Below are positions 18,191 to 43,577 of a stretch of 64,000 nt of DNA, piece by piece (the stretch's first letter is position 1; every line of letters begins with the position of its first letter). This DNA comes from Ischnura elegans (lineage: Eukaryota > Arthropoda > Insecta > Odonata > Coenagrionidae). Position numbers and translations under genes: made by a program. The notes below the pieces were generated by a model. It was not told the DNA's origin and searched no databases. It saw nothing but the letters and a program-made list of their open reading frames with translations. The DNA is taken from contig NC_060258.1 in assembly GCF_921293095.1 (NCBI RefSeq), positions 2,356,001 through 2,420,000 of the forward strand. The letters are read 5' to 3'.

Positions 18191-18229
18191 CATGAAAAGC
18201 CGTATTCACATTTTTAACCTTAATCTACA

Positions 18230-21240: not shown

Positions 21241-22547
21241 AAACGTCACAGCCGTGAGGCACAATATTCAAATACGGTTATCAAGTAAACATTTAGCGCG
21301 TTTAATTGAAAAGTTACACAAATATTATACTAAATTATTAAATGGATAGTTACAAATACAATAATAATTGGGAGATAAATATTGATGCTTTTTGTCTTTT
21401 TGTAATCTTTGCTTTATTTAAATATTCACATCAAATCGAAGACACATTATTTTTACTCATACAACAGTCTCATTACTCTTCTGCTATTATCTAACCACTT
21501 TCTGTTTTCAGTGTACGTTACCTCTGTATGAATTTATTTTCCCAGAAATTTCAGCCCCTGCAATTCCGCGACAATTCGACCTACTTTTCTTCATTCAATC
21601 TGAATGAAAATGCATTTCAATGTCTGCAGTCAATAGCATTTCAAAGAAACGATTCGAAACCTTTTCAATGCAAATAATATGTACTGAAGATGAGCACTTC
21701 ACTCCAATGTATGTAGATATTATGTCCTCCAACTCAACTGTATTCTTCTGAGTTTCCCATCCAATCTGCAAATTGGCTGTCTTTTTCTCTCTGAATACAA
21801 CTTTTTTGAATTGCGTAGGGTATTTTGAAAGCAATTCCGTTTGCTGTTTTCATGCCGCGAAGAAATGTTAATAGGAACTCACGGAACGATCCCAACATGC
21901 ATCGCCTTATACAGTTCAGCATAGTTTACAAAAAAGTAACGGCCGTCATGATACGAGCTCGTGAGAATAGACACCAGTATATCAGTCACTTATTCGGACG
22001 GAGATAAAATATAGATAGTTTGTCTTGTTCAAATTTTTCCCGTCGAAACATGTTTAACGACAAATAGTTCTATAAATACATTTTTCACTTGAGCGATGGT
22101 GGCGTAATAAATTTCATTGGGACCCTTTTTTCCCAATGCACAACAATTAGTACTTTAAAAACATATTTTGTCTATTTTTTTTAAAAATGTCGGCAAAATA
22201 GCTATTCCCAATAATAATGAAAATAATTGAGAAATATCTAAGAAATTAACCTCGATTTAAAATGTATTTCCAATGATTTTCTCTTCCGATCCTATCTTCT
22301 TTAGTGCTACCACAAGCAAAGAATATTTTTCCATCACATTCATAAAGCGGCCTTTGCAGTAAGTACAGTGACGTAGCAAGGGATATGCTACGGGGGAATG
22401 GGAAGTGACCCCCCTTGTAAACAGGGAGTTCGGGAAAATTTTAAATGTCAGGAAATATATTTCATACCATTTTGGCAATTGAAATTTCACTTAAATCAGA
22501 CGAAGGTGTTGGGGATGTGCGAGGAGAACTTTTTGATCTCGGTTCGA
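21241..22547. other. Sequence absent from duplication unit 2
   Basis: Has no counterpart between blocks A' and B' of unit 2. A stretch near 22320-22370 (AATATTTTTCCATCACATTC, then AAAGCGGC) is weakly like part of block A. CAGTGACGTAGCAAGGG at 22368 resembles a hAT-type MITE end. No gene was found. Confidence 0.4.
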
Positions 22548-22555
22548 GTATCGAG

Positions 22556-22756
22556 TAGGAGTGTGCGAGACTCTCGAGACCACCGAGACGAGTCTCGAGA
22601 CGCGAATTCCATGTCTCGGCGTTGTCGGGACGAGTCTCGTCAAGACTCTCGACTGCCAGGCGAGACTTTCGCCGCGCCGAGGGAGTCTCGTCCCGACAAT
22701 GCTGAGAAATGAAATTCCCGTCTCGACCGCCGAGACGAGACTCTCGCCCATCACTA
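22556..22756. mobile_element. hAT-type fold-back MITE with perfect 8-bp target duplication
   Basis: A 201-bp element flanked on both sides by GTATCGAG (22548-22555 and 22757-22764). It starts TAGGAGTGTGCGAGACTC and ends CGAGACTCTCGCCCATCACTA, so read inward the ends are TAGGAGTGTGCGAGA and TAGTGATGGGCGAGA, a pair typical of hAT elements. The body is almost entirely an inverted repeat of GAGACTCTCG-like words with arms of about 75 bp. The perfect target duplication suggests recent insertion. Confidence 0.92.
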
Positions 22757-22783
22757 GTATCGAGTCAAGTCGAGTGCGGCAAA

Positions 22784-23355
22784 TGTGAACTACGCAACGA
22801 GACAATACATTCTCCAACATATTCTCATTTTTCGAATCCCCTTGTAAATATCCAATACTCTGAATGCTTAATATGTTATAACATGGAAAAACTAATGAGG
22901 ATGGTTGATGGCAATAGTGTCAGAATAGGGTAGTTTCCTTCATTTTCCTTTTCTAAAGAAAACGAAAGGCATTGATTGCGATTCCTTTCCCACCACTGGT
23001 GTATTCATAATGTACAAATTATTTGGTTTTAGAAATCCCAGTTTATACGAATGTTAATGGTCAATTTTAACCTCATTAGAAAAAAGGCCAGTTTTGCGTC
23101 CATGCGATTCCACTGCATTTGACGTCACAGGGATCTACTTTCTATACGAGTAAATAGGAGTTCTACATCGTCTCTACCGGTGCACGCATGAGGCACAGAG
23201 CTCAGGGAAAAATCTCTTTATAATCACTTATTAAAATTTCCTAAGGTCGGAAAGTTTCCTTCGCTTGATAGGGTAATAATAATCCTTATTAAGGCCAAAT
23301 GATTCCTGCTATCAGGGTACTCTGCCACCTGCTAGCAGCCTTCATAGCAGCAGCG
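22784..23355 (+). repeat. First copy of an ~800-bp-spaced direct duplication
   Basis: Begins near TGTGAACTACGCAACGAGAC and matches 23585-24152. Shared landmarks are AATCCCAGTTTATACG, TGACGTCACAGGGA and ACTCTGCCACCTGCTAGCAG. Identity is about 80% by eye. No coding frame is conserved. Confidence 0.8.
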
Positions 23356-23584
23356 CACATACCCTCGCCTCAATGTCACCTAACACAGTAACAGCGGGAA
23401 CCTGAACGACGTCACACGGGGTTTTCCCAGCATTCATAATTACCCGTCACGTTTTCGCGCGCTTGAAAATTTCGCATTTGCTTTACCGCAAAAAATATCT
23501 TGATTTAAAAATCTAAAAGCTTGAATTGCGTACTCCAGGAGTAATAATCTTTCGATTTAGACACTAAAAGCAAAATAGAAAACG

Positions 23585-24152
23585 ACCCTATTGTGAACTA
23601 GGCAATAAGACAATGCATTCTCCCGCATATTCTCATTTTTTCGATTACCTTTGTGAATATTCAATACTCTGAATGCGTAATATGATATAACAGGGAAAAA
23701 ATATTGAGGATAATTGATAGTAATAGTGTCAGAATAGGAGAGTTTCCTTCATCAAAGAAAACAAAAGGCATTAATTGCTATTCCTTACCCACAATTTGTG
23801 TATTCATAACATTCATATTATTTGGTTTTAGAAATCCCAGTTTATACGTATGTTAATGGTCAGTTTTAACTTCGTTTGGAAAAAGCCAGATTGGCGCCCA
23901 TGCGATACCACTCCACGTGACGTCACAGGGACCTAGAATCTAAACGACCAGATAATGGTTTTTCATAGTTTGAGATTACCAAACCATACATGAGGCAAAG
24001 AGCTCAGGGAAACATCTCATAGTATTCACCCATTAAAATTTCCTATGGTTTCTTCGTTTGATAAGGTATTAGTAATCCTAATAAAATAAGCCAAGCGCTT
24101 TCTGCAAGCTGGTTACTCTGCCACCTGCTAGCAGCCTTCATCGCAGCAGCGC
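23585..24152 (+). repeat. Second copy of the direct duplication
   Basis: Begins near TGTGAACTAGGCAATAAGAC. The copies are separated by about 230 bp, including CGCAAAAAATATCTTG and CAGGAGTAATAATCTTTCG. It is absent from duplication unit 2, so it arose or inserted within unit 1. Confidence 0.8.
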
Positions 24153-25217
24153 CGGGATTTCCTACGCACTGTCTTCTCATCTTTCACCCCTATAAATGTC
24201 CATGACCATCCGACAACTGAGTCATAAACATTACCTTGGAAATGTAGGGTAGTCAGTTATTTCGTTCTGGGGCATCCAAAACAGGATTTTTTTAAACAGG
24301 CTACTAAACAGAATAGTTTCAACTAATTTTTATTTTTGAAAATAACTTCATTTTTTCAAAGAAATCTTTTCAAAATTATTGAATTTTCAATATTTTGTTT
24401 TCTTTGATGGATGTGAGTAATTGTGTTCCCATATTTTAGGGGGGGTGTCCGGACCCCCCGGACCTCCCCTCTCGCCAGGCCACTGCCTTGGAGACCCCCT
24501 TTCACAGGATTCAATCTTTCAGGATTGCGCCGTCGCTCTGCTTATCCCCATCGTGTTTATTTCTTATCTTATTTGTATTCTCCTGCTGTCAACCTCTTAT
24601 CTCCCACTCCAACCTCTTTTGATCTTTCTCGGAAATTAGCGATCGCTTTTTCTAGACAGAATTCTGTGTGCGTGACCACTTACTCTTTTCTCCCACCGAA
24701 CGTGCGAAGAAATTGAAATGGATCAGAGAGATAACATTGAGTGATTTGGTGATAACGAAAAAAAACAACATTTTACTTCTTAACGATCGTGTCTTCGGTC
24801 ACGTACGCATTCGTGAAATATCGAGTTGTAAAACATCCAGAAAAAGCAGTTTTTCTTGGAACAAGAGTTAATCTCCCTTAATTTTTTTCACCTTTCACAG
24901 ATTGTATGGCAATATTATTTTGGAATGAACTTTAAGTATTTATTGTTCGACTTATCTCTGATTATTCAGTTTGAATTTAATAAATTCTTTGAAAGAAACG
25001 ATACTAGCCGCAACTGAGAATGAATTTCGAAGAAAACATATTCACTCAAACGAAAAATTAAGTTGCATTTAATAAGAAAAGAGATAAAATATTGCTCTAT
25101 AATAAATGTAAAAAACTTCATTAACTGACATCACTTGTGCCCATTTTACTGCTCTCTGTTGTGCAATCACTTCCGTGGAAGGGCTGTTTGTAAAGTTTCA
25201 TTTTGCACTCCGCGCGG

Positions 25218-25224
25218 TATATAA
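25218..25224 (+). promoter_or_regulatory. TATA box in block B
   Basis: TATATAA in a GC-rich context (CGCGCGG on its 5' side) with a G-rich tract immediately 3'. The site is retained in the second copy at 32144-32150. The next 60 bp hold the first ATG of a short frame. Confidence 0.45.
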
Positions 25225-25274
25225 CGGGGAGGAATTTTAGAGATCGTAATCAACATTTCTTGATTTTGTTAACT

Positions 25275-25382
25275 ATGAGTACGATGGCTATCCCTGATTT
25301 TATGAGGGTGTCACAGCGCATCAAATGCATCGGAAACTTAAATGAAGGTGCCGCACAAGACAAGAGAAGGCAACGGTTGTAG
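25275..25382 (+). CDS. Short open frame with conserved tail, 35 codons
   Basis: Starts about 50 bp after the TATA box: MSTMAIPDFMRVSQRIKCI, ending RRQRL. The paralogous block keeps the C-terminal part in frame (32227-32301), with the shared pattern SQ.IKCI..LN then a basic end RR.RL, even though an indel separates the N-terminal parts. No family is recognised. It could be a small peptide, an upstream ORF of a longer transcript, or chance. A second overlapping frame (MEGLEASEQSQETP, about 25422-25545) is open here but stopped at the fourth codon in the other copy. Confidence 0.25.
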   Translation: MSTMAIPDFMRVSQRIKCIGNLNEGAAQDKRRQRL

Positions 25383-25545
25383 GGAAAGAGCGATCGACTC
25401 GCACGGCTTCCCGCTAACAATGGAGGGCTTAGAGGCGAGCGAACAGTCACAGGAGACACCGAGTGTTTATCAAAACCTCAGAAGAGCGGAGAAGGCATCT
25501 ACGAATGGCATTTGTCTCTTCTTCGGCAATTGCCTGCTATGGTAA

Positions 25546-26559
25546 AAATTTTACTGTTTACATTCCTGGTATCGAATGGCATGAATATCATAAGATTATA
25601 TCATTTCAAGTTTTCAGAAAAAAATATTTGAGCTAACTTACTTGGATACAGCCTAGAGTTATTCAATTGTTTTAATCTTGTGTTTACGGATATTTGACGG
25701 AATTTAGTAATTTTCGCAGTTAAAGCTTCAGATGTTAAGGTACAAAAACAAAACAATGGACAGTAAATATCAATTGCTATGGTAAAAAAGTTGCCATGAC
25801 TTCGGTAATTTTATATGTTTTAAAGTATCCGTAGTTATTAAAATCATACCAAATGAGACCATTTTATTATGTATTATCATAAAATTCCAAGGTGGTGCCA
25901 GTAGCAAGATGGACTCCGCACGCTCATATCATTCATGGAAATCATTCAAGCAAATATGAACATGGTCTAAATTTTATTCCAATAATCATTTGAATGCAGA
26001 GAATTTCAGTTTCAGACGGTGAATGATGGTAATTCGCAAGGTCATTCCCTAAATCATTCGCATGGCCATTCGATTTAATACCCACTGAGTAAAACATCTA
26101 TAGCACTTTCCTGCCGGCGCCTGCGAGAGGAAAACTTTTTCCGTCTTACGATTAGGATAAAATTTGAGACAAAACTCAACATGTGCCCGCCCTGGTCACT
26201 GGGCTATTCATTGTGTTTTAATTTGGTTATGCGTTATTTGACGTCACTAAAATATACATTCTAACCCCACCTTTGCGTAAGTCCATGGTCAAGTCATTGA
26301 GTTACCAGTGTTTTTAAATATAACATTTCTTTTGTTTATCAATAATTAACTCTTCTGAAAGAATTAATGACATTTTTAAGCATTTTGCATTTTTTAAATG
26401 ATTTCTTGCATTGATTACAGCAATGTTAGTGATCACAATAGGAAAACTCTAATTAGACATCCATAATTAGTATGCATGTCCACTGTACATTGTACAGGTG
26501 ACTAGGGTGCCTTCACAGCATTGCGTTGCGTCGACGCGACGACAGCTCTAGCCCCATCG
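25546..26559. other. AT-rich sequence, nothing recognised
   Basis: Lies between blocks B and C of unit 1 and is largely missing from unit 2. Confidence 0.4.
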
Positions 26560-27688
26560 GCAAATATTGCCCTTGACAGCTCTGAATTGCGAAAAGAAAT
26601 GAATTGCGAGAGTCGTCGGCTCTCTAAACATTGGCCCGGGAACAGGTCGATTCATGATTTCGATAATCGCGCAATATGAATGTTGTTTTTATATTTTCGC
26701 GACACATCATTCCTCAAAATTTACTTCCTTGCTTTTGATTGCGTTAAAATTAGAAGTGTCGATTATAGTAGTAAATCATGTATCATCAGTGATGGCACTT
26801 GCCTATGCATTATTATGGCTACATTCTATCTCCTAAATCTAACTACATGAAAAATAGAAAATAACGTACAGATAGTGAAAATGAGTAACGTGAAATGGTA
26901 TCAGAAAAATTTATTTGGGATCATCATTGCTAAAACAACTAGGCGCAGCCAAGTTACCCAAATTGCTTCAACTTCCGCAATCATGAGGGTACAGTTATAT
27001 TATATAAATTGGTATTTAAGAGACCGTAGTCACTAACAAGGAGCTCTCACACTGTGTTCAGCTGGTAATACCGATGACGGATGTGTGTTATGGTAATTCA
27101 ATTCAATTCTTATGTGATTTCGGTCTAATTTAGAGCTTAACACTTGTCTTATGTTGAGAAAATATTCGAGTTATTTATGATTAAAACTTCAATGTAATAT
27201 TGAATGATGAAACTATTGGCAATCATCACTACTAATTCAGCTACTCCTGCATGCCTGCTTCCATCATACCTAAGCTTCCCATAAACGACAAGCAATTCGC
27301 AACCGCCTGTGCGCTGCTGCCGAAACGCGGACATTATTCAACGCGAATACATTTTTCTGTGACAGCGCAGCGTGCTGGCGAAAATACGTCATCAATTTTC
27401 AAAGTCAAATTACAATTTTTCAGTTGCCAAGCTGCACCTTCTATGGAGTGATTGGGAAGCTTCGATTCCTTTATCTTCATCTCGTGATCCCATATATCAA
27501 AAATCTCGCAAAAGATCACAACCAATCCGGAGAAAAAATGTTAAAAGTGATATCTATCATTCTTATCCACTAAGTTCAGTCGAATTTATGTTCGCCCGAG
27601 CGTTCAGTAGCACCATCGATCATTGGCAATCCCTACGACTCCATTTTTTATAAGGCACTAAAGATTAGATAAGCCCGCTGTCTGCGGG

Positions 27689-27696
27689 TATAAAGG
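27689..27696 (+). promoter_or_regulatory. TATA box ahead of exon cassette 1
   Basis: TATAAAGG followed by CCTCTTCCTGAGCC, retained almost exactly at 33257-33264. Transcription would start near 27719. The first exon would run to a donor GTAAGG at 27822, and the 95-nt intron to the acceptor at 27917-27918. Confidence 0.5.
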
Positions 27697-27918
27697 CCTC
27701 TTCCTGAGCCAAAGGACGAGCATATCTCGTTCGTGTTGCATCTGGGAACTGTTCAGCCATCTTGTTGTTCAAATCCTGTTATCTTAGAAGCATTTGTCCA
27801 TCGTTTTGGATAAAGATTTCTGTAAGGTTAAAAATGGCATTGAAAGGAGAGGTTTGCTTCATGAGAGTGAAGTAGTTTTCTCAAGTCAGTAACACAAGTA
27901 ATTTATTTTACGTTTCAG

Positions 27919-27998
27919 GATTGCCTTCTCTGCATTGGGAGTAGGAGAGCCGAGGAAGGAGCGAATACCGATAACTAACGGGTTGCCTTTTATATTGG
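27919..27998 (+). other. Exon-like cassette, copy 1 (80 nt)
   Basis: Bounded by acceptor TTTACGTTTCAG and donor GTAAGT. With one leading base, the frame is open: IAFSALGVGEPRKERIPITN, then GLPFIL. Copies 1-4 keep the pattern IAFSAL..GE.RK.R. The presumed upstream exon has no ATG and its matching frame has a stop, so coding use is unproven. It may be an untranslated exon of a duplicated promoter unit. Confidence 0.45.
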
Positions 27999-28449
27999 GT
28001 AAGTAAATGCAAACGCATTTAATCTAAACATTTTTTCAAATTATGCATAAAAGCGTGAATATCGATCAACGGAGATTGAAGGTAATTTTTGATAAGAATG
28101 TTGACCAAATGTTTCACGTGTTTTATGCATAGAAAGTTTTTCGCCACCGTCTATTACGTACTTTTTCGAAGGCTCTTAGAATTAATGCGATATTTTGAAA
28201 CTCTATTTAAACGAAATCTTCATTTTTTATTCATGGGGCAAGAAGTAATTGCAACGTTATAAAAATAGCTTGTGGGCGGTATGGACCATCCTACTCTGAG
28301 ATCTTAACTAGTCAATTGTTTTTTAATTTTGTGTCAGATAGAGTTTCGATTCATACAGGCAATATCGACAAATAAGTACCTATTTATAACTTTTTTACTA
28401 CCGTTTATGTTTTTTCACTACTAAATGCAGTTATTTAACAAAAATTTCT

Positions 28450-29480
28450 TTGGTTTTGATTTAAATCGTTGACCTAAAGAAGATGCATTTGCAGTTCTTG
28501 GGCATTTGTTCGCTTCACTGTTTGATTGTGAGCACAATGCCTACAAGATTTCATATCTGGATTGACCGTGGGGGTAGAAGCTAGTCAGTGTGTGTTCAGC
28601 TTAGAATCCATTACATTCATCTTCATCTCGTGATCCCATTTCTTAATAATCTCGCAAAAAATCGCAATCTATCCAAATATGAATCGTAAAAAGTGATATA
28701 TGTCCTTCTAATCCATTAAGTTCAGTCGATAGGATTGTAATTACTTTCGTCCAAGCGATGACTGGCAGTGTCGTGAATTGGCAATCCATACACTTCAATT
28801 TCTTAAAAGGCACTATAGATTAGAGAAGCTCATTCTCTCCTCTCTTGGGTGTAAAGGCCTCTTCCTAAGCCGCAGGATGAGTAGATCTCGAGCGAGGAGC
28901 ATGTGACACATTGATACGCCATTTTTTCTTCAACACCTGTTATCTTTAAGTATTTTATCATCATTTGGGATTGAGATTTCTGTTAGCTTAGAAAAGGAAT
29001 TGAAGGAAGAGGTTTGCTTCATACGAGTATAATCATTTTCCCATTTCGTAACAGAAGTAAATTATTGTAATTTACGTTTCAGGATTGCCTTTTCTGCATT
29101 GGGAATAGGAGAGCTGAGGAAGGAACGAATATCGATTTCAACCAGATTGCCTAAACCTATTGGGTAAGTACATGCAAACGTATTTAATCCACGCTTTTTT
29201 TATGATTTACCAATTAATGCGTGATTGTCTTACTTAAAATAAGCATGCCATTCAAGTGCAAGATTTTATCTAATACAATCGACCAACTGAGTTTGAACGT
29301 AATGTATGGTAAGAATGGATAGTAAATACGTCTCTTGTTTTATCCTAAAAACGTTTTTTGCACACACTACTACGAAAATCTTTTTTTTAATGAAATCCAC
29401 CAATTCCTTTTCCACGAGACGTAGTGCTATCGAAAAATAATATGTTCAAAATTGATTTTTAACTACCTCAATCAGGGGCC
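28450..29480 (+). repeat. Duplication unit 1, block D
   Basis: Matches 34400-35370. It is itself a diverged copy of the cassette-bearing part of block C, so each unit holds two cassettes. Landmarks are GCTTCACTGTTTGATTGTGA and GATTGACCGTGGGGG. Confidence 0.75.
29083..29163 (+). other. Exon-like cassette, copy 2 (81 nt)
   Basis: Acceptor TTTACGTTTCAG and donor GTAAGT retained. The open frame reads IAFSALGIGELRKERISIST. The upstream TATA box is degraded to TGTAAAGG and the first-exon donor to GTTAGC. Confidence 0.4.
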
Positions 29481-29799
29481 GGCATAAGGCAGTTCTTATG
29501 AACCGATTATTTACTGCTTTTGTTTAAAATAAATTGTACTCCTGGCAAAATGGAGGGAGACCTCCCGGCTGGAAGCACGAATAGCCTTTTTTGAATAAAT
29601 ATTCTTCGTTGACATTCGAAGCATTTGTTCCCTTCCGTTCGACAAATTTACCGCTCATTTTAAGTTCATTGACAGAACATATCTTAAATTACGCGACTAG
29701 GTGGGGTCACATATTATGAAAATAGGCAGAATTGAATTTAGTTTATAATATTATAAGGTAAAAAACACAAAAGACAAATTTGTGCCTACAAATACCTAA
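29481..29799. other. Spacer between duplication units
   Basis: A piece around 29600-29720 recurs inverted at 49990-50160, and in part at 47290-47400. No gene. Confidence 0.45.
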
Positions 29800-31090
29800 A
29801 TTAATTTTGTTGGGACAACTCTTCCTGTGCACTTTCATTCTCAGCACAATGCTATAAAATATGAGTAAATTGATAACTGGCATTTAAATATTTGCACAGT
29901 CAAAGTGAGCTCCTACCAATCGTATATCGCTACATCCAATGAAATACTGAAAGACAAATTTTATGAAAATCATTGAATATTAATGCTGAAAATTCCCTCT
30001 GAAATCTGAAATGGGTTTGATTTCTTCAGTTATCAGTACAACAATTATCTCTTAAGATATAGGAATAATCAAGGGAAATAATGTTCAATTAAATGTACGC
30101 GATTTGTAAATCTATTTCCCATATTGTCTAAAAGTGAACACACATAGCTCAGTGCTTCAACTTGCGATGGATATTTTTTTCCCATTGTTTCTCTAAAGCG
30201 GCGTTTGCGATAGATAGATGTTGGGAGTCCTTTCCTCCGAAGTGACAAATACAGGTGAAGGCACAGTCAATGTGAGGCGGAGATAAGATATCGCAAATGG
30301 AGAGATTCATGACCTCAATGCTTCTCCATTTTTCTTTGGACGCTGAGTTTAGCCACGAGAGTTGAAATGATTGCAGAGCGATGAGAATTTTGAAAATGGG
30401 CTCGAATATCATCCTCAATGACTTCTTACGATCCATAAACGTTATCGAAACTTTAAGTAATGTTTCCTGTTTGCTCCAAAGATACGTCCCATTAGCGTCT
30501 CAAACATAATCAAGATTTCATAACGGATAACTCTCTTTCATACTCTTTTTTACTACGACATAGAAAAAGAATTCTTCCATCAGTCACGGCTTGGAGAAAA
30601 AAATACGGATTATCGTCTGGAGGAGTATATAATTACGACCCTATGGCCTCGATATTTTTCGGTGCATTTCTAACTCGGCAAACGCGAGCGGTAATAATTC
30701 CTTTAATAAATAGCATTTTTTCCAATGAACAGTTATATGTAGTTCATCCGGCATTAAGCTTTCTTTAAGATTAATTAATGGCTTTTCTTTATGCCTGAAC
30801 CTGAAGGATTCAGAAAGCTACCTCTAGATATTGAGACGCTAGGTATTGACCAATCGCTAGGAGCCACCCTACATTAGGAAAGTGCAAAAATTCGTTTAAT
30901 TCAAAGAACCAAATGAGTCTTAACGTTTTATAGAAGTATCATTAGAAAGAAAATCGCCGAAAAATACCTACTTAGACATGCGATTGCAGCAGAATGCAAG
31001 TCATTTATAGAAGATATGTGGGATTAGCTATTACCACTATCAATGATAACAATCAAATAACATTTTTTCGGAGTTATGTCGGGAATTTCG
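29800..31090 (+). repeat. Duplication unit 2, block A'
   Basis: Counterpart of 20210-21240. It is longer because it holds about 250 bp (30440-30700) that unit 1 lacks but the 46.6-47.1 kb copy keeps, so unit 1 lost this piece. Confidence 0.75.
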
Positions 31091-32143
31091 TTCGGGACAT
31101 CAAAAACCAGTAGGAATTCTTTTTTGTTACAGGGTACTTAACAGAAGTTCGTAAACTAATTTTAATATTTTTCGTTGTTGAAAAAAAACTTCATTAATTC
31201 AAAGAATTTTTTTTAAATTAATGACTATTAAATATTTTGTTTTCTTTTATGGAGGCAAGTAATTGAGTCCTCATTTTTAGAGAAGGGGGTCCGGACCCCC
31301 CGGACCTCTCCTCTCTTCACGGCATTGCCTTGGAGACCCCCTTTCAAAAGATTCAATCTTTCAGGAATGCGTCGCTGCTCTGCTTATCGCCATCGTGTTT
31401 ATCGCTTATCTTATTTGTATTCTCCTGCTGTCCACCTCTTATCTCCTAATCCAACCTGTTTCGATCTTTCTTTAAAATTCGCGTTCTCTTTCTCAAGATG
31501 GAATTCTGCGTACGTGATCACTTACTCTTGTCTCCCACCGAACGCGCAAATTGAAATTGAAATAGATCAGAGAGATATCATTGAGTCATTTGGTGATACC
31601 GGAAAAAAACTACATTTTATTTCTTAACGATCGTGTCTTCGGTCACGTACGCATTCGTGAAATATCGAGTTTTGAAATATCCAGAAAAAGTAGTTTTTCT
31701 TGGAATAAGAGTTATTCTCCCTTTTGTTTTTTCACCTATCACAGATTGCATGGCAATATTATTTTCGGAATGGATTTTAAGTATTAATTGTTCGACTAAT
31801 CTCTGATTATTCAGTTATAAATAATATTGTATTTGAAAGAAACAATTCTATCTGCAAATGGCAATGAATTTCGAAGAAAAAATATTCGCTTAAACGGAAA
31901 ATAAAGTTTCATGTAAAAGAAATAAGAAAAAAATTTGCTCAATAATAAATGTAAAACAAACATTTGAATATTGTACAAGATAAGAATTTCAAAATTCACC
32001 TACGTTCTTTCTCACTCTTACAATAAACGGCAAAACTGTTCCCTTTACATTTTCTTGCATCACTCGTCCCCATTTTAGTGCTCTCTGTTTAGCAATCACT
32101 TCCGCTGAAGAGGTGGAAAAGTTTCACTTTGTACTCCGCGCTG

Positions 32144-32150
32144 TATATAA
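32144..32150 (+). promoter_or_regulatory. TATA box in block B'
   Basis: TATATAA, same position as 25218-25224, with flanks GTACTCCGCGCTG and CAGGGGCG. Confidence 0.45.
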
Positions 32151-32226
32151 CAGGGGCGAATTTTAGAGATCGTCGTCAATATATCTTGATTTTGTTAACT
32201 ATAACCACGATGGCTATAGTGTCAGG

Positions 32227-32301
32227 ATGTCACAGCATATCAAATGCATTGAACACTTAAATCAAAGGGCCAAAGAAGAAGAGAGAAGGCGACGGTTGTA
32301 G
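32227..32301 (+). CDS. Short open frame, 24 codons, paralogue of 25275-25382
   Basis: Reads MSQHIKCIEHLN and ends RRRRL, in the same frame and with the same TAG as the other copy. The start differs: this ATG replaces a GTG codon of copy 1. The frame is preserved although substitutions are frequent in the surrounding block, but 24 codons is too short to be sure. Confidence 0.22.
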   Translation: MSQHIKCIEHLNQRAKEEERRRRL

Positions 32302-33256
32302 GGAAAGAGCGATGGACTCGCACAGCTTCCCGCAAACAATGGAGGGCTGAGAGGCGAGCGAACAGTCACAGGAGACACCGAGTGTTTATCAAAACAATAG
32401 AAGAGCGGAGAAGGCATCTACGAATGGCATTTGGTTCTTCTTTGACAATTTCTTATCATTGTAAAGACTTTAATATATTAAAATTTTACTTTACTAAACA
32501 GCTAGGCTCAGCCATGTAGAATATATAATATCTTCAACTAAGGATGCCTTCTCAGTTTGGCATTGCATTTATACCGCGGCTGGCGAGCCAATCAGAGACT
32601 CTATTAGGGAAATGATGACGCCATCTCGCCAGATCGGTGCGTCGTCTCAGAAAAATTTGACCGTGCCGGATTTTCTCTGCCTGAAGGTGGCTGTAAGCCG
32701 GCGATTCCGAATCGGTGTTTGTTCATGGGAAGCTTAGGTATACAATTATGCAGGAGTGGCTAATTTTATTAGTCAGTATTATTTGAAGTTTTAATTTTGG
32801 ATATGTCGTATCTTTTCTGAACATATACATATCGAGTTAGAAAATAAAACTAAAAGGGCGTAATATTGCATTGGGAAGTGCCATCACTTGAAACGCAGAC
32901 GAATTTACAACACGAATACATTTTTCTGGGACGGCGCAGCAAGCTAGCGAAATTACGTCACCAACTTTCAAAGCCGGATTTCAATTTTTCAGCTGCCAAG
33001 CCGCACCTTCTATGGAGTAATTGGGAAGCTCTGATTCCATCACCTTCATCTCATGATCCCATACATAAAAAATCTCGCAAAACATCACAACCAATCCGAA
33101 GAAAAAACGTTAAAACTGATATTTATCCTTCTTATCCACTTAGTTCATTCGAAATTATGTTCGCCCGATGTTGACAGTCAGTAACGTGTATTGGCAATCC
33201 CTTCATCTCCATTTTTTATAAGGCACTAAAGATTAGATAAGCCCGCTGTCTGTGGT

Positions 33257-33264
33257 TATAAAGG
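33257..33264 (+). promoter_or_regulatory. TATA box ahead of exon cassette 3
   Basis: TATAAAGG followed by CCTCTTCCTGAGCC, as at 27689. A donor GTAAGT stands at 33390 and the acceptor of the cassette at 33486-33487. Confidence 0.5.
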
Positions 33265-33487
33265 CCTCTTCCTGAGCCAAAGGATGAGCATATCTCGTTT
33301 GCGTTGCGTCTGAGGAACTGGTCCGCCATCTTGTGGTTCAAATCTTGTTATCTAGGAAGTTTTTTCCGTCGTTTTGGATTAAGATTTCTGTAAGTTTTAA
33401 AGAAAGCATTGAAGGAAGAGGTTTGCTTCATGAGAGTGAAATAATCTTCTAACGTCAGTAACAGAAGTAATTTATTTTACGTTTCAG

Positions 33488-33567
33488 GATTGCCTTCGCT
33501 GCTTTCGGAAAAGGAGAGCCGAGGAAGGAGCGAACACCGATATCAAACGGGTTGCCTTTTCTATTGG
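33488..33567 (+). other. Exon-like cassette, copy 3 (80 nt)
   Basis: Splice sites intact on both sides. The frame reads IAFAAFGKGEPRKERTPISN, then GLPFLL. In this copy only, the presumed upstream exon is open in the joining frame for about 30 codons, but it has no ATG. Confidence 0.45.
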
Positions 33568-34399
33568 GTAAGTAATTGCAAACGCATTTAAGCTACGCTT
33601 TTTTTCGAATTATGCAGAATAGCGAGATTGCCTTTTTAATATAAGAATGCCTTTAAAGTACAAGATTAAATCTAATGCAATTGAACAACAGAGTTTGAAC
33701 GTAATTTATGATAAGGACATATAGCAAATATATTTTTAATGTTTTATCCATAGAAAGTTTTTCACCGTAAGTGTATTACGTACTTATTTGAAGGTATATA
33801 GACTTAATGCGATATTCCAAAACTCTATAAAAATGAAGTCTTCATTTTTATTCATGAGGCAATAACTTATTGCAACGTTAGTGCGTAAAAATAGCTTGTA
33901 GGAGTTCTAGACCATCTTACTCAGAGGCCATCTTTAGTCAGTTCTCATGAGCTGATTATTTTTTACTTTTGTTTCAGATTTAGTTTCGATTTATACAGGC
34001 ATTCCCAATTTTGACATGTGGTCTGAGGAACCGCTGCGTTTCTTAATGGTGAATACTTTCAAAATTAATATTTTAAATGTCAATTATCATCGCTATCTTC
34101 ATATTTTTGTGTAATAAGGACATGAGAGACTGAAAAATTAACTTTTATCATTACTTAGTAGAGGATCCGGTAAACTTCACATCACCTTCATTTATCAAGC
34201 TATGTGTACAAAAATCTATTTTTCTTCGTTCGTTTCCCTAAAATCCGAAGATGGATAAACCGACCTTCTTCTCTCGACCACGTCACGGATTATGTTCTCA
34301 TTGTGATATTAATAGTTATATCAACGATTAAGTACGTACTATTGATTTTTTTGTAAGTACCGTTTATGGGTTACCACTATTAATTGCAGTTATTTAATG

Positions 34400-35370
34400 A
34401 TACTTGCTTACGTTTTGATTTGAGTCGTTGATCTGATGAGATGCGTTTGCAGTTTTTGGGCAATAGTTTGCTTCACTGTTTGATTGTGAGCACAACGCCT
34501 ATCAGCATTCGTATCTTGATTGACCGTGGGGGAAGATGCTAGCCAGTGTGTTCAGCTTAGAATCCATTATTTCATCTTCATCTTGTAATCCTCAATAATC
34601 TCGCAAAAAATCGCAAGAAATGCAAATATAAATATTAAAAAGTGATATCTGCTATTTTTTATCTATAATGTGCAGTCGAGAAAATGGCAATAATTTTCGC
34701 CCAAGTCATGACTGGCAATGTCGTAATTTGGCAATACCTACTCCTCCACTTTTTATGAGTTACTAAAGATTAGATAAGCTCGTTCTATGTTTGCGTAAAG
34801 GCCATTTCATCAACACCTGTTATCTGAAAGTCCATCATATTGGATTTTAATTTCTGTAAGTTAAAAAAAATGCATTAAAGAAAGGTTTGCTTCATACGAG
34901 TATAATAATTTTCCCATTTAAGTAACATAAGTAATTTATTTTACGTTTCAGGATTGCCTTCTCTGCATTGGAAAAAGGAGAGCCGAGGAAGAAGCGAATA
35001 TCGATTTCAATCAGATTGCCTAAACTATTGAGTAAGTAATTGCAAACAAATTTAATCTACGCTTTTCTTTGAATTATCCATGGCTGTGTGATTGCCTTAC
35101 TCTTAAGAAGTATGCCCTTCAAGTGGAAGATTTTCTGTAATGCATTCGACCAACAGAGTTTGAACGTAATGTATGGTAAGAACGGATAGTAAATATTTCT
35201 CTCGTACTTGTTCCATAGGTGAAAAACACTGCTACGAAAATCTAATTTAAATGTAATTCACTAATTCCACAGGGCGTAGTCCAATCGCAACATAATATGT
35301 ACCTAATAGCTATTGAACTACCTCAACCAGAGGCCATCATTAGTCAGTTCTTATGAACTGATTATTTTTT
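34400..35370 (+). repeat. Duplication unit 2, block D'
   Basis: Counterpart of block D (28450-29480). The stretch with the TATA box is partly deleted near 34790-34810. Confidence 0.75.
34952..35031 (+). other. Exon-like cassette, copy 4 (80 nt)
   Basis: Acceptor TTTACGTTTCAG and donor GTAAGT retained. The frame reads IAFSALEKGEPRKKRISISI. No TATA box remains upstream. Confidence 0.4.
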
Positions 35371-36394
35371 GCTTTTTTTAAAATGGTGATAAAATCTATA
35401 ATACACTCTCATCTCACTATCGTGAATATATAAAATTTAATTTTTCAAAAAATGGGTGATTAAAGTCATTCTTTAATAAGGCCATCTGTTTCTGTAAAAA
35501 TGGGGAAAATGTTCAGGTTGCGGTCTCACTGATTCTTGATACATAAAACTTATTTAAATATTCTGCAAATATTGCCGGATAAAATAAGCAAGAAAAGTTA
35601 AATAAAGAAAAGCACGTCATGAAAAGGCATTATTTCCCATTTCACTGTTTAATTTTTTTAGAGGTGGAGACAACTAAATTTTCCCAACAACTAAAACAAA
35701 ACAGACCTGCTGCAATAATATTCGTAGTTAACAGTTTAAAATTCAATAACATGGAAAAACTTTGCTGTTATATGAATGAACAACTGAAATTATTCAAGGC
35801 CCACACGATAAAATATTGATGAATTTTAATTTATCGCCTGGTAACGCGTTGAATACAATATGTATTTTAAAGATTCCTAACGGCATTTTTATATTATTCT
35901 ACGTCACTAATCGTGTGAAATTCTTTTTTCTTCCGTACGTCTTTACTTTTGACCATTGTTTTGCCATCAGTTCATAAACATGAATGATTTTCAAATTATG
36001 GCCATTTGATGCTATTTCTACTCATATTATCGAAGGGCCAAGAATGGAAACATTTTTCTTTTGCATAAATCCCTTACTGAATACTCTAAATCTATAAAAT
36101 AATTTACGGAACTGCTGAAAGTTTGGCATCCATTTTGTCATTGCTCTGGATGTTTGTCGGCATGCCTGTAAGAAACCCATAAAAAGCTTACTTGATAATC
36201 GCCCTCCATATTTCTTCCTTTCACCTTATCTCAATGGCTTATAATGTGCTAGCTGGGATGCAATCAGCAAAATCCAAAATACCCTAAAAACAATACACTG
36301 AGTTTGAAAGTTAAAGACACAATGTTCAGTGAGCTACTCTTCGAGGTGATAGGAGTATAATTCTGAAAGTGGATAAGACTATTTATAAATCTCC
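35371..36394. other. AT-rich sequence, nothing recognised
   Basis: A 66-codon frame at 35619-35819 has no domain and no context. Confidence 0.4.
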
Positions 36395-36760
36395 ATTACC
36401 ATGGGGTAAGGTCCAAAGAACGCTACATTCGATACAGTGCGCTCTCGACGAAAGTACTCCGGAGCAGCGGTCCACAGGCGATACGTTCGCCACGAGAATT
36501 TCTTTCCGAAGCGGTCATGAGCGAAGTCAAAATGACGGAATGAAAAAGGGCAGGCTAGCTGGATTATGAGATCGGGGAGATTGTTTCAATTGCGACAAGA
36601 GGCGATCAAGGTCGTTGAATATAAATGGTTGTGGTCGAATATAATTAGTTTAAACTATATTTGGTTGATCGTGGTTCCACAAAGTAAAACAAGGAACTTG
36701 GGGCTCATTCATTTCTCATACCTAACCCCGCACCTCTTCCTTTATAAATTCATTACCTTA
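36395..36760 (+). repeat. One-ended copy of the TIR element
   Basis: Begins GGGGTAAGGTCCAAAGAACG at about 36400 and follows the 63275-63728 copy through GGCTAGCTGG and GTGGTTCCACAAAGTA. It loses the right terminal repeat. It is clearly more diverged than the other two copies. Confidence 0.6.
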
Positions 36761-37860
36761 CTAAGGAGAAATATGGTTGATCTGCAGTTTAACAACTTGT
36801 AATATTTCACTTATTATGACTAGCGACTATTATAAAACTTTAATACATTCCATTTACTTCATATATCTTCTTTTCTTTCAAATTTTACTTTGTGGAGGGG
36901 ATGATGTGTCTGAATATGTTCTTATAATATTTTCTACTGCTGCATGTCCCTTTAAATAATTTCTGTGGCCTTCCGTGCGTAAGGGATGCTTCCAGAGACA
37001 TTTGAGTTTATTTTGTAGGAGATAGGAGAATGTCTAAGGAGTGATAGTGCTTGCTATATATTCATTTAAATCAAAGTTAAATTAATATCCTACCTGTGAA
37101 TGCCAGTGTCTTCCTATTATTAGGATTATGATCAACATACGACAATTATTGTACCTTAATATTCTCTTTAATATTAATGATATTTTATGATTGATAATCA
37201 AACTAAAACAAACGCAATGATAACCATATTATAAATCTTTTTTTTTAAGAATCAGGGGGAAACGTGCACCTGTACTCCTCCCCGAAATCTAGATATTTTT
37301 TCACGTTGTCTGAGCATTGTGCAACTAAGGAATTTTATTCTTTAATAGGAAACAGACTTGTTTTTTCCCTAATTTTAAAGTAAACATATTCAAAGTTTAA
37401 TGAGCGAAAGATAGTAAATTTTTGCTCCAGTATATAATATGTACAATATGAGGCGGCCTCTAAAATCTGTATAGGCTTCTTTTTTACTGAAGAGTCAGGG
37501 GGAGATAAAAAGTGGACGGGAGGAGTTCGTAAGGAAGACAAGCAGGGGTGGCGTGGGGTGATTGGGGCCCTCAGCTGGGGCTAAAAATCTTATCTTTTAT
37601 TTCCTTACCCGAGGTGCCCTGCCTTGGAATATTTAGGAAATCCTTTGCTAAGAAATTGATTTTGATAGGGTTCTGCTTCCCAATAACTGGATATAAATTT
37701 ATGAAAAATAATAAATTCATAAGATTAAGTTCTGTGAAATGTGGGAATATCACAGATCATAAAATTCAATAGTGTAGTAGGGCTGTTTTTCTTCAACTTC
37801 CGATGTGTTATGAACAGAAGAGGAAGTGATTAATTAGAAATTATTCCTTCGCTAAATATT
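36761..37860. other. AT-rich sequence, nothing recognised
   Basis: Contains small GA-rich tracts near 37250 and 37490. No gene. Confidence 0.4.
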
Positions 37861-38597
37861 GAGCACACTTGTGGGGTCCTTTCGACATAATCGACTCGGT
37901 GTTTGAGGAATTGGTTGTGCCTACGGACACGATTTACTATACCTTCTTCAAAGGATGTTTCCTCCAATGACTTCCATTAATTTTGGCTTTGTCCTGAAGC
38001 TCATCGCCCTCTTGAAAATGCTTCCATCCTAGCCACGTCTTCACTTTAGCGTAATGTTGGAATGATGGATGGAAGAAGATAAGAGGATCGCCAATTATGC
38101 ATATCAGATGGAATCTTTTAAAAGGGGCTATTGTCCGTTTTCAATGTATTTCAAGGTTACGTAGTCGATTCGGTAGTCCCATGGTTAAGTAATGTTACAT
38201 AATATAAGTGATGGTGTGTATGGGGAAGGCAATAGAGAACTAAGATAATTTGCATTTCTTAGAGGAGATAAGGAAGTGAGGAAAACCTGGACTTCGCTTG
38301 ATTTGACAAAAGAGAAATTACACTTTACTTGCCGTTCAGAAAGTAACAATGCAAATATTTTTCATTTTTAATGCATTTCCATCCATGCCGGCATCCGCTA
38401 TTAAGTTGTTACTCAGGAACATTTTTTTGTTTGAATACAAGAGGGCAGCACTTTTCCACAACAATTCAATGCGTATGACCCGTTTCGGCTCACAGAGTCA
38501 TCATCTGATACAAGATTGTGCTTTATTTGTTATGTTTGCACACTGTTATTGGCAACTTTCATGGTAATAATTTTATATTCATTCTGTTTCTTTGCAG

Positions 38598-38740
38598 TCA
38601 ACGTTTCATCCTTTCGTAGCAACACTGAGATCGTGTGTTACTCCTCGCTGACCAACGCTACCACGCCTGGTTCCCATTGGCTACTCCCTGTATTCTGAAT
38701 CCAACACACTCTTAAATAATTATTTCATTCTTTCGAAATA
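38598..38740 (+). other. Presumed 5'-untranslated exon part of ankyrin gene copy 1
   Basis: Acceptor-like TTTCTTTGCAG ends at 38597 and leads straight to the ATG at 38741. The acceptor is retained in copy 2 (ending at 58025). The upstream exon was not located; a GTAATA in the 40 bp before the acceptor is too close to be its donor. Confidence 0.4.
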
Positions 38741-40890
38741 ATGGCAAGGAACATTTCTGCTAGCGGCGCTGAGCAATTTGTTGAGGAGAGACTTCTTGCT
38801 GGATTGGTGAATGGTTCACTACTCCAGCATAAAGAGCTGCTTGACATGTTGGAAGATGTAGATGTACGGCACGCACGGCAAAGAACACTCTTGCATGTTG
38901 GTGTGGGACTTGGGAAGGCTGACTGGGTGCAGGAGTTACTGGCGAGAGGCGCAGACACAGACATAACAGATGACAGTCAACAGAATGCATTGTCTTCAGC
39001 TGAGGAGATGGTGCGCCAGTTCCCTGATGATGTAGAACGCTCAAAAGTGCTGAATTTGGTGACATTGGTTCACAGAAGAGACCAAGTTATTTTGCGTCGT
39101 CTCGAAGCATCTTCGAGTAGGAGCACTGATCATGTAACACCCGTGGCTAGCCCAGAATGTGATATTGCATCTCTCAAGTCATCTGTTGGCTCATTGAGGC
39201 GAGAAATGAAATCTCTTGTAAATCGGTTGGCCTCATCCTTGGAGGAACTGAAAGCGAATGTGTGTGGGCGTGACGCTCTGTTGCGTTGTCTAGAAGAAGC
39301 AGTGACGTCAACAGCGGATGATGTGACGTGTATCAAGTGTGGTCTTATTGGGGAGGCATCTATAAGTCAACCTATATCCGATCCGGCCAGAGCAAGGCAG
39401 GAGTGTGTGAACGCCATGATGCGAAAGACTAGGATAGTGTATGGAAGTGGAGTTGATGAAATGCGTAGATTGTATGAGAGACTGTATGATGAAGATGAAT
39501 TCACTGCTTTCATAATTAAATATTTGTGTGGGAATGATCGGGTGAATGTGATGGTGGATTTCGAATCTGAGAACATTGAAAGGATGAAGGAGAAGGTTGT
39601 GGATTTGGATGGGAGTCAGGGGAATGGGAGTGAATGGAGATCATTTTATGATTTTGAGAGTGAGACTGTGTATTTAGGTGCAAAGGAGTGTTTTAGTTAT
39701 TGGGAGAAATACGTCTGTGCTGAGTTAGCTTGGGCCCTCACCCAATTATCCCTGAAATTATTTTACGATAATGAGGGGAGGCCTTACAGCAAGGGACATG
39801 TGGAACGAGAGCGTGAGTGGATGAGGGCTCTAGAGGAGGCGGAGGAGAGGAGGAAGAGGGGAGAGGGATATGATTGGAGTATCAATCGTGCATTGTATAG
39901 GAAGACACCGAAGGCAAAGGTATGTTGGCTGGCTGCAGCTGTCCCTACTATTATCGCTGAATATGGATCCACAGAAAGAAGAGCTATACTGCAGCAACAA
40001 GCCCCTCTCCTCTTCTCTCTCTATTCTAACAATGTGATGGGAACACTTCTAGCCAGTGCAAAGGTGGGTCCTATGTCTATTTCTTACGATTTTTTCTTTA
40101 CATCATGGTCTTCATTAAAACATTGAAATCATTATTTGAAGCTGTTTTAGCCAATAAATCGGTAAATAATAAATGAAAATGTAAACATCCTTTTGAATAA
40201 TTAAAAGAATTGTTCGTAATTTAATTGTCCATGATTTCCCAAAAGTGGGCAACTCATTGGTTGGCATGCAGAGGTGAAATGAAGCTTCTGGTACATTGGT
40301 TGGCATGTAGAGGTGAAATGAAACTTCTGGTACATTGGAGTTCATCCTCTCATGTGTTCTATAAGTAGTTTGATTTAATGAGTGTCGGGTTTTGTAGTAT
40401 TAGAATATTTAAATGCAATTCATTTTTGGCAAACAATCTACTTCTCAATATTCCAAGATGAAGATTTCTTGTTAAAAGGTAACATGTTTTTGAGATCTTA
40501 TGTGTCATAAGTTTAAGAAAGTGGCTTCAAAACTAACAAACTCTAACCTAATGGATAAATATCGAGGTTAAAGATAAAATAATATCAGGAAATTAAAGAG
40601 TCCCTAAATTCAAATCTATGATATATCAATCTAGTGATTTTTTTGTGAATTCCAAACAATAGTGAAAGTCTTCCAATATTTTTCACTTATAAAATGAATG
40701 ATTCTTGTGGAACATGGGTTTGTTCGAGGATGTTTAATAATTGTTGCTTATGGATACTGCCATTGCATTCTTGAAAATGGAAGTAATATTTTATCTCACT
40801 ACGAATATTGACCTAATTCTGACATTGCATTTTGTTTGTGATTGCACTACTTTTCATTCCATTAATTTATATTTTCTGTTTCAGAGATGA
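38741..40890 (+). CDS. Ankyrin / coiled-coil / pseudo-metallopeptidase-like protein, copy 1 (two exons)
   Basis: Starts at ATG 38741 (MARNISASGAEQF). Exon 1 is open for 441 codons to a donor GTGGGT at 40064; the acceptor TTTCTGTTTCAG at 40883-40884 then gives Arg-stop at 40885-40890 (442 aa). Reading through the donor would add a different tail, ending at 40126. Domains: an ankyrin repeat at residues ~48-77 (TLLHVGVGLGKADWVQELLA) and a partial second at ~81-110; a predicted coiled coil at ~145-200; a C-terminal domain at ~215-435. That domain has YDFESETVYLGAKE, a helix AELAWALTQLSLKLFYDNEG at 327-346, RPYSKG, then AVPTIIAEYG. From memory, the layout matches arthropod proteins with a HELTH-type zinc motif in that helix. 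Here both His are replaced (Ala327, Trp331), so catalysis is unlikely. No signal peptide or membrane segment is seen, so it is probably intracellular. Function unknown. Confidence 0.7.
40064..40884 (+). other. Intron of ankyrin gene copy 1
   Basis: GT-AG intron of 821 bp with a position-matched counterpart in copy 2 (59933-60929). It contains a 39-bp tandem duplication at 40257-40334. Confidence 0.55.
40257..40334. repeat. 39-bp tandem duplication
   Basis: TTGGCATG(C/T)AGAGGTGAAAT recurs at 40261 and 40300. Copy 2 of the locus has only one unit-like stretch (near 60325), so the duplication followed the segmental duplication. Confidence 0.8.
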
Positions 40891-43577
40891 ATTTGGCCTG
40901 GTATACATAGGAGATTGTGATGGAGCCAGTCCTGAAGATGAAATTTTCTTCATATTCATTTATTTACTTTAAGCCTCTCAGTTTTTATTGGGTTATTTGA
41001 ATAACTTTTATTGGGTTATTTGAATAACTTGTGTATTTAGTGCAATCGTAAAACCTATTTTATGATTATACTCAGACATTCATGTTGATTTCTTGCTTGC
41101 TACATGGCACTTTTTCGTTCGGTAGGTAATCACATTTTGAGATGCATATTGTTTTAACCTTCTGGGCACACAATTTAGTCAGTCTTTTCCTAGTCATGTC
41201 GTTGGGATATTTGTATTTTTGATAATATATCATATTGCATCGCATTTGCGCTATTAGTAAATGGAAGGAATGGTCCATTTTAGCTTACCAATGTAATGCT
41301 ACAATTTATCTGAAAGCCATTGTGCACATAAATCTATTTGGATCATATACAGCTCTTTCCAGATTTATAATCATATTTTGCCGGATGTACTCATGTTTGT
41401 GTAGCCCTTTGATAAACATTAGTTTGTTTTGGTTCATTGCTCTGACCTTGTTTGGCCTCATTCACATGTGAGACATTTCCCTGTAGTTTGCAATTATAAT
41501 GATGTAAGCATAAAATTGTGTAGTAGGCAAAACACTTTATTCGCCAAAGATTATTAATTTCAAAGATATGCTATACAATTTAAATGTGATGTAGAATATC
41601 AATTTACAATCTTGTCATATTTGACATAAAATAGTTAACATGGGATTTTTTTCCGTTTTTACTAGTTGGAAGGCATTTATGAAATGTCGTAATTAAGTAA
41701 ATAGGTTCTTAAATGCATTTTCCTACATGTTTGTGACCTAAGTCCATTTATATTCTTGCTGGTCTTTTTCAAACATTCACTGACGTTAGAGAAGATCATT
41801 GCAATCATTCATGCACGTATATATTTCCAACATTCACATATCCTTGGTATAGTATTCAGTTGACTGGAAATGTGCATTTGCTTATTTATAAGCAAACAGT
41901 AAATGTCTCGAAATCCTCAGGATTGCTGCTTGGTTTTCAAGGATTTAAGTGAATATAATGGTTAAACATGTTACCAGTTATCTTCATAAGAAACATATCT
42001 ATTCCTATTTCATGGCTTTGTGATGCCTCCTTTCTTTGAGTTTCATCGTATGTCTAGTTTTTTTTCTTAAATGGCTCTTCATTTGTCCAATCTCCAATCG
42101 GTAAATGAGTTTGGGTTTTTTTTTATTGCTTTTCATGTTTCACAATTTTACTTTTTCTATTTTTTGCATTTGTATTTGTTGCTCATTCGTGTCGGTAATT
42201 ATATAATTTGGTGTTATTTTATTGTCTCTCTGCTACCTGGTGGCAACAGAAATGTAGTTGTAATGATGTGTAGTTGTTTCCAAAAGAAAATCCATTTACA
42301 ACTATTGATTTTTTTCTAAGGTATTTCTGAATTGATAATTTTACCTGTGCTACACCACTCTTGTTGGTAAGGTAAGATTAACCATCCAGATTTTGTAAAT
42401 ATGATCCATTAGATATGAATATAATATATTTATGTCGTTAACTAATCTGCAGTAGTGTCATTATATGTGGATTAAAAAAAAATATTTTATAATCATATAT
42501 GATGGTAAATAATTTACATGTAAATTGCTTTATGATTATTACTTGATTTTGATAATCTAGGATAATGAATGCATATCTATGAGAAAAACAATGCATTTCT
42601 GAATAATTCTCTTTTTAATTTTTCTCAGTTGGCTTATCTCTGAAGAGGAATTGCAAGATATCCTCACTTAAGGTATTGCTTGTTCTCATTTATTTTGCAT
42701 TATTTTTCATCACATTTATTTTTCTTTTTAAAAATGTCATGATACTATGAGGAAGTAATGTATTTATTTTTTCAATAATCAAATGGATTATCATGTAGTT
42801 GTAAATGTATGCATATTGTTTTTATAATTAAATTACTTATGTGGTATCACACTATATTCTGTACGATGCCATTCAAGGCACATTTGTAGAAATAGTATTT
42901 CATTGAATGTGATATGATTAAACCAGTTTTTTTATTTTTGCTGCAAACTGTTATGGACCTTTATCCAATATTGCATTTCATGCTCCACACAGATAAAATA
43001 AATTTTGTAATACTCAAAGTTTCAGTGATTTCTTTTGGTTTGATATCAGTATCCCATGTGGTGCATAAGATTCAATGATGACAAATTTTGTAAGAAAATG
43101 CAGAAGGACCTCCTGATGTTCGCCTCGTATTTGCCATGATGCTTTTTAGTGCTGTGCTCCATAGCCCACCTTATCCTTAAAATATTAAGTATAATCGCTA
43201 ATCAAAGGTAGATATTATTATATTTTTAAAATTTTGTTATGCATATGATATGAATCCATTTTAAGAGTAAAAATGATAATTATCCAGCTCAACCCACAGT
43301 TATTGTAACTACATTGCATTCCCTTCCAATCATGGGTTCATAATCTAGGACCTCCTTTCCCTACGAATTTTAATGTGGTATTTTGAATTTGCATTATCAT
43401 TTATGTGCAGACCTTTAATCTATTTACTACACTCCCCAATAACTCGAGGCAGTGGAATAGTATTTTTGCCTGCTGAAACGCTTCCCTTTTGCCCAATGTA
43501 AGCACAGAACATGTATTGCTGTCTACAGTGACATTCGAGTTATCATTCCATCAAACAATACTGACCTACAGCTTCAT
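40891..43577. other. 3' flank of ankyrin gene copy 1, AT-rich
   Basis: After the stop, the next ~90 bp stay similar between copies: GATGAATTTGG, then AGCCAGTCCT. An alternative frame there (DEFGLVYIGD in copy 1, DEFGLTYFGG in copy 2) is open, but it does not join exon 1 in phase through the obvious splice sites. A 10-13 bp tandem (TTATTGGGTTATTTGAATAA) lies at about 40987-41030. No other gene is seen. Confidence 0.4.

Follow-up and report, generated by a model that had tools for sequence, protein, structure and literature searches.

Clusters of the protocadherin and UGT1A type are built from tandem, related 5' exon units that lie on the same strand and share a downstream exon. Tandemly duplicated internal exons, 5'-untranslated exons among them, are near-identical exons with conserved acceptors and donors that are gained and lost between copies. 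The mammalian KRAB zinc-finger clusters offer a third parallel, as a large, recently duplicated family packed into certain chromosome regions. Here we describe a locus of the blue-tailed damselfly, Ischnura elegans, that resembles each of these in part. It lies in a window of 64,000 nucleotides, by which we mean the whole stretch analyzed (bases 2,356,001 to 2,420,000 of contig C13, which is chromosome 13), and it contains five cassettes centered on an exon of about 80 nt, together with genes for ankyrin-like proteins. We consider it likely, with a probability of roughly 70% judged from the sequence, that the cassettes provide the ankyrin-like genes with tandemly duplicated noncoding 5' exons and that transcription starts mainly in one cassette type, T1. 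Unlike the units of the protocadherin and UGT1A clusters, the repeated damselfly exon appears to be noncoding, is preceded by its own acceptor, and in most copies comes without a TATA motif; moreover, instead of a single locus, dozens of gene copies show the arrangement. Unlike other duplicated internal exons, the damselfly unit includes a promoter and a first exon, and the order of its types is kept across a large, chromosome-restricted family. The difference from the KRAB clusters is that the cassette-bearing family is ankyrin-like, a zinc-finger family on the same chromosome being separate from it.

An earlier note on this DNA had reported five repeated blocks, and all five were found at exactly the positions it gave (Table 1); a pattern search allowing up to 3 mismatches returned 5 matches, with 0 expected from 100 shuffles. 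The splice sites it claimed are present in all five copies, where TTTCAG precedes and GTAAGT follows the exon; TATAAAGG lies upstream of two of them, and the frame reading IAFSAL is open in four of the five, as it had said. Its block length of about 80 nt agrees with the exons themselves (80, 81, 80, 80, and 78 nt), but the homology far exceeds the exon, with alignments of cassette pairs spanning about 0.6 to 1.3 kb at 72 to 79% in most comparisons. Along the window, the order is T1, T2, T1, T3, and then the intact ankyrin-like gene, with T5 ahead of a broken copy.

Table 1. Cassettes and ankyrin-like gene features in the window (window coordinates)
Feature	Position	Strand	Details
Duplicated locus holding cassettes and intact gene	20219-40126	+	Pieces recur on C13, C14, C16, and C17
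Cassette 1, type T1	27604-28059	+	TATAAAGG 27689-27696; exon 1 end 27821, donor GT 27822; exon 2 27919-27998, donor GTAAGT 27999
Cassette 2, type T2	28759-29225	+	Without TATAAAGG; exon 2 29083-29163, donor GTAAGT 29164
Cassette 3, type T1	33172-33628	+	TATAAAGG 33257-33264; exon 1 end 33389; exon 2 33488-33567, donor GTAAGT 33568
Cassette 4, type T3	34709-35092	+	Closest to ankyrin-like exon; exon 2 34952-35031, donor GTAAGT 35032
Internal exon of ankyrin-like gene	38597-40063	+	Acceptor CAG ends 38596; donor GT 40064
Probable 3' exon, start	40885-40980	+	After TTTCAG; TTTCAGAGATGAATT junction in 7/7 other copies examined
Cassette 5, type T5	54348-54790	+	Exon 2 54659-54736, donor GTAAGT 54737
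Second, broken ankyrin-like copy	57944-59960	+	Downstream of cassette 5; frame break near 58.7 kb; 59210-59658 inverted

Cassettes were cataloged across the genome (1,722,721,009 bases in 110 contigs) with two patterns, for each of which 100 places were listed. The first, 26 bases covering the acceptor and the start of the exon, found 144 sites when up to 3 mismatches were allowed, and its reversed control found none; the second, inside the exon, had 117 matches, and its control had 1. The search for further copies that the earlier note proposed thus turned up at least 129 distinct cassettes, with 58 on C17, 38 on C13, 20 on C14, 11 on C16, and 2 on C55. Longer DNA queries returned 41 matches apiece, and these too lie only on the five contigs (best 40 candidates scored). 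Ankyrin-like loci were collected in parallel. The ankyrin-like protein as query gave 93 matches, all on C13, C14, C16, and C17 apart from one on C15 and another on C84 (best 92 of 365 candidates scored), a divergent member of the family gave 96 on C13, C14, C15, C16, C17, and C84, and a pattern for the acceptor of the ankyrin-like exon had 71 sites, all on C13, C14, C16, and C17, with none for its control. Merging these left 116 loci, of which 14 came solely from the acceptor pattern.

For 110 of the 129 listed cassettes, the nearest ankyrin-like locus lies within 20 kb, downstream, and on the same strand; random placement, which used a guessed length for C55, gave a mean of 3.6. Two other cassettes have the locus on the opposite strand, 17 have none in that range, and in no case was the locus upstream on the same strand. 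With the loci restricted to the 92 found by the first protein query, 103 of the 129 cassettes were linked, with no exception within 20 kb, and the loci known from the acceptor pattern alone added the other 7. Counted from the genes, at least 56 of the 116 ankyrin-like loci have a listed cassette within 20 kb upstream, and 30 of those have two or more.

The earlier note had also proposed looking for a downstream exon, and the ankyrin-like coding exon, with its invariant acceptor, provides one. This exon has 144 nt of 5' untranslated sequence, an ATG at 38741, and 441 codons to the donor, and the long open frame runs from 38741 to 40126. The acceptor, ATG, and end donor are kept in all 23 rows of an alignment (22 distinct copies, since L013 and L026 are one copy), and homology drops to 0.59 directly upstream of the last 80 intron bases before the exon. 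An acceptor and then 5' untranslated sequence open the exon in every row, so exons must exist upstream of it. Past the donor at 40064, the probable 3' exon, which begins AGATGAATT as it does in 7 of 7 other copies examined, reads AGA TGA in frame, that is, one more codon and a stop at 40888 to 40890.

The window and 20 fetched stretches, each of at most 10 kb, contained 54 cassette hits, of which 48 were complete and were used and 6 were partial and were left out. The 48 fell into five well-supported clades, T1 (n = 20), T2 (n = 8), T3 (n = 9), T4 (n = 9), and T5 (n = 2). In the fetched loci, these types follow one another toward the gene as T1-(T2)-T4-T3, with no reversal seen; in locus L024, T5 occupies the place of T3. 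The 5'-most complete cassette was a T1 in all 12 loci in which cassettes and gene were both present (L017 to L028). A TATA motif, by which promoters were judged, occurs in 17 of 20 T1 and 2 of 2 T5 copies and in 0 of 8 T2, 0 of 9 T3, and 0 of 9 T4 copies, so that the units do not each have a TATA promoter of their own. The first exon ends in a GT donor in 19 of 20 T1, 7 of 8 T2, 5 of 9 T3, 5 of 9 T4, and 1 of 2 T5 copies, so this donor has often been lost in T3 and T4. The second exon has an AG acceptor in every T1, T2, T3, and T5 copy and in 7 of 9 T4 copies, and it has a GT donor in every copy of all types except one T3 (8 of 9). Over all types, this amounts to 46 of 48 acceptors and 47 of 48 donors. 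Alternative first exons have a donor without an acceptor, and the conserved acceptor found here marks the repeated block as an internal, second exon. Since T2 to T4 have lost the TATA motif but kept the splice sites of the second exon, most of the extra copies are better explained as internal leader exons than as promoters.

On this basis, we propose that a T1 cassette would supply the TATA promoter and the first exon, with transcription starting about 30 bases past the TATA motif, and that this first exon would be spliced to a noncoding second exon of about 80 nt. T2, T4, and T3 or T5 follow toward the gene with the acceptor and donor of the second exon kept, and most of them would serve not as promoters in their own right but as internal 5'-untranslated exons, included optionally or in series. 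From the last donor used, splicing would then lead to the acceptor at 38596, in front of the exon with the start codon and 441 codons, and the 3' exon would come after it. The whole locus has been duplicated repeatedly along chromosome 13. The mix of exons would alter the leader while leaving the protein unchanged, so it would probably influence the amount, place, or translation efficiency of each gene copy. Of the explanations in the earlier note, a tandem set of alternative first or second exons fits best, given the upstream, same-strand position of 110 of 129 cassettes, but the blocks are not simple first exons, as exon 2 has an acceptor. Its suggestion of promoter units captured from one gene is unsupported because duplication copied gene and cassettes together.

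Several observations weigh against the cassettes being leader exons of the ankyrin-like genes. No known ankyrin-like exon lies within 20 kb of 17 of the 129 listed cassettes, and 60 of the 116 ankyrin-like loci have no cassette within 20 kb upstream among the matches listed. All five divergent members, with 75 to 83% nucleotide identity to the window copy, lack a cassette in the approximately 8 kb upstream; such members may rely on different leaders, or else a single branch may have acquired the cassettes. Because duplication took in the whole locus, the strand linkage may have been passed on with the copies rather than maintained, and it is by itself no proof of use. The fetched loci were chosen around hits to a T1 query, which biases the sample toward seeing T1. 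The first-exon donor is kept in only 37 of 48 copies, ranking 336 among 737 dinucleotides, and two of the nine T4 copies have no AG acceptor. Within types, the share of dinucleotides kept as well as the acceptor is 16% for T1, 53% for T2, 30% for T3, and 80% for T4.

Alternatively, the cassettes could be passengers, the decaying remnants of one ancestral 5' end that were amplified with the locus, with T1 at most in use and the extra exons absent from the mRNA. The lack of TATA in all 26 T2 to T4 copies, the loss of the first-exon donor in 4 of 9 T3 and 4 of 9 T4 copies, the 6 partial cassettes among the 54 hits, and a conservation within types that barely exceeds that of the flanks all fit such decay. 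However, the second exon of T2 to T4 has kept its acceptor in 24 of 26 copies and its donor in 25 of 26, and passengers would lose these sites as readily as the TATA motif. The comparison between types also argues against passengers. Identity between types is 0.85 (0.846) over the acceptor region and the first half of the exon and 0.91 at the donor, versus 0.66 in the leader, 0.72 in the intron and upstream, 0.56 downstream, 0.79 in the TATA region, and 0.72 in the second half of the exon. Values as high as that of the acceptor and first exon half were reached in 5 of 632 alignment windows, and the best window elsewhere had 0.776. The statement in the earlier note that flanking DNA has diverged more than the block therefore holds between types (0.85 to 0.91 in the core against 0.56 to 0.79) but not within them, where the flanks are conserved about as well as the exon. 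With the within-type contrast weak or absent, the evidence for constraint comes from the older divergence between types. Taking both sides together, we regard passengers as unlikely.

A poorer explanation is that the cassettes are independent genes for short spliced noncoding RNAs that merely adjoin the ankyrin-like genes. T1 copies do have a promoter-like TATA, a donor, an acceptor, and a second donor, and exon 2 lacks a coding frame. However, a conserved donor after exon 2 calls for another exon farther on, and of the 112 linked cassettes, 110 lie upstream on the ankyrin-like strand. The window gave no Rfam match to a known RNA family at gathering cut-offs, and no tRNA was found in it. Short RNA genes seem quite improbable to us, and noncoding leader exons of the ankyrin-like genes remain the better account.

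That the cassettes are coding alternative exons giving different protein N termini is scarcely credible. One frame is open in most of the window copies, but over the full set a conserved coding frame did not hold up, with exon 2 lengths of 74 to 82 nt and the frame open in 27 of 48 full copies. The substitution test proposed for this frame gave a ratio of nonsynonymous to synonymous differences (pN/pS) of 0.67, and among the 33 copies of 80 nt, 11 contain stops. On these grounds, exon 2 is noncoding as far as its sequence tells. None of the five window copies of exon 2 contains an ATG, and the only frame of the ankyrin-like exon that is open up to its ATG begins at 38720, within that exon. Among all exon 2 copies, there are 2 ATG triplets in 3,835 nt against 76 expected from composition, a count made on related and thus not independent copies; AGT (21), GTA (16), and TGA (18) are likewise low. 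For such a set of related copies, the near-lack of ATG would be as expected for a 5' leader. With acceptor and donor both conserved and the frame not, exon 2 has the sequence features of a duplicated internal 5'-untranslated exon.

An origin as a transposable element, whole or in part, is just as hard to credit: there are many copies on a chromosome reported to be enriched in such elements (PMC10781644), but no copy was found off C13, C14, C16, C17, and C55 among the matches listed from the 1.72-Gb genome, and the cassette has no edge of its own, its homology continuing into the surrounding locus, where parts of the 20.2 to 40.1 kb region matched the fetched stretches at 67 to 92% per 250-base bin. 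The earlier note had held that copies bounded like a transposon, and splice sites changing as fast as their flanks, would speak against its proposal. The outcome was mixed: no bounded element was seen, and every listed copy lies on C55 or a chromosome 13 scaffold; on the other hand, comparisons within a type show no clear excess of conservation at the splice sites over the flanks.

The N-terminal region of the ankyrin-like protein scored 16.8 bits against Pfam Ank, below the cut-off of 21.1, and a profile of 20 copies matched the ankyrin repeats of solved structures over residues 19 to 87, with a best E value of 3.4e-11. The ratio of nonsynonymous to synonymous substitution rates (omega) had a median of 0.41 and a range of 0.23 to 0.93 in 209 pairs among 21 open copies, one pair with a synonymous rate (dS) of zero being left out. 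Ratios at codons 271 to 330 and 361 to 420 (window about 39551 to 40000) were 0.90 to 1.28, versus 0.11 to 0.35 in most of the N-terminal part. These values indicate that the family is constrained by purifying selection and that its C-terminal part evolves fast, with diversifying selection possible at the two codon ranges. A bacterial origin of the protein was considered and rejected, as 139 pattern matches turned up in contigs of bacteria and archaea but none was confirmed. Nothing in the analysis backed the idea of a degenerate metallopeptidase in its C-terminal half, and we do not propose it. No description of the family was found in the literature searched, a body that leaves out most subscription papers and preprints.

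Chromosome 13 is the smallest chromosome of this damselfly. The published account of the assembly ioIscEleg1.1 gives 1,723 Mb in 110 scaffolds, with 21.32 Mb for chromosome 13 and 59.84 Mb unplaced (PMC9975421). C13 has 21,320,372 bases, and we infer that C14 (18.8 Mb), C15 (11.9 Mb), C16 (11.1 Mb), and C17 (10.3 Mb) are further scaffolds of chromosome 13. A microchromosome pair is reported in about 80% of Odonata species, and its origin is debated (PMC7596019). The female color-morph locus of I. elegans is on chromosome 13, where transposable elements are raised and recombination is reduced (PMC10781644); the word "ankyrin" does not occur in the main text of that paper.

The window also contains a C2H2 zinc-finger gene at 9640 to 11661 on the plus strand, with 16 zf-C2H2 stretches. 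Its N-terminal part has at least 157 matches in the genome (best 150 of 921 candidates scored), and the listed places are all on C13, C14, C16, and C17; there seems to be a very large C2H2 zinc-finger family on chromosome 13. That the cassettes belong to zinc-finger genes was rejected, since 4 of the 129 listed cassettes lie within 20 kb of such genes (first 100 of the 157 matches). Between them, the ankyrin-like genes, a large family in which putative leader exons are repeated, and the very large zinc-finger family provide concrete gene content of chromosome 13 for study. The leader exons, if used, would be a natural experiment in the separate regulation of duplicated genes. We give only a modest chance to a bolder picture, in which chromosome 13 is a nursery of rapidly duplicated genes, each ankyrin-like copy has an ordered set made up of a single promoter exon plus several extra leader exons, and the copies of this fast-evolving protein family can be switched or dosed individually through the choice of 5' exons while the coding exon stays intact.

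Other repeats occur in the window. The spacer of the cassette array, at 31085 to 31956 and 24259 to 25113, had 1,823 first-look candidates genome-wide, far more than the cassettes, and the best 40 of these are on C13, C14, C16, C17, and C55; the spacer may contain a commoner repeat. A minisatellite at 18225 to 19767 has a 142-base unit in about 10.6 copies and is strongly C-rich on the given strand (GC skew of -0.43 at 18 to 20 kb). An inverted pair, 17367 to 18217 and 63149 to 64000, consists of arms of about 850 bases that are 90% identical and lie 45 kb apart.

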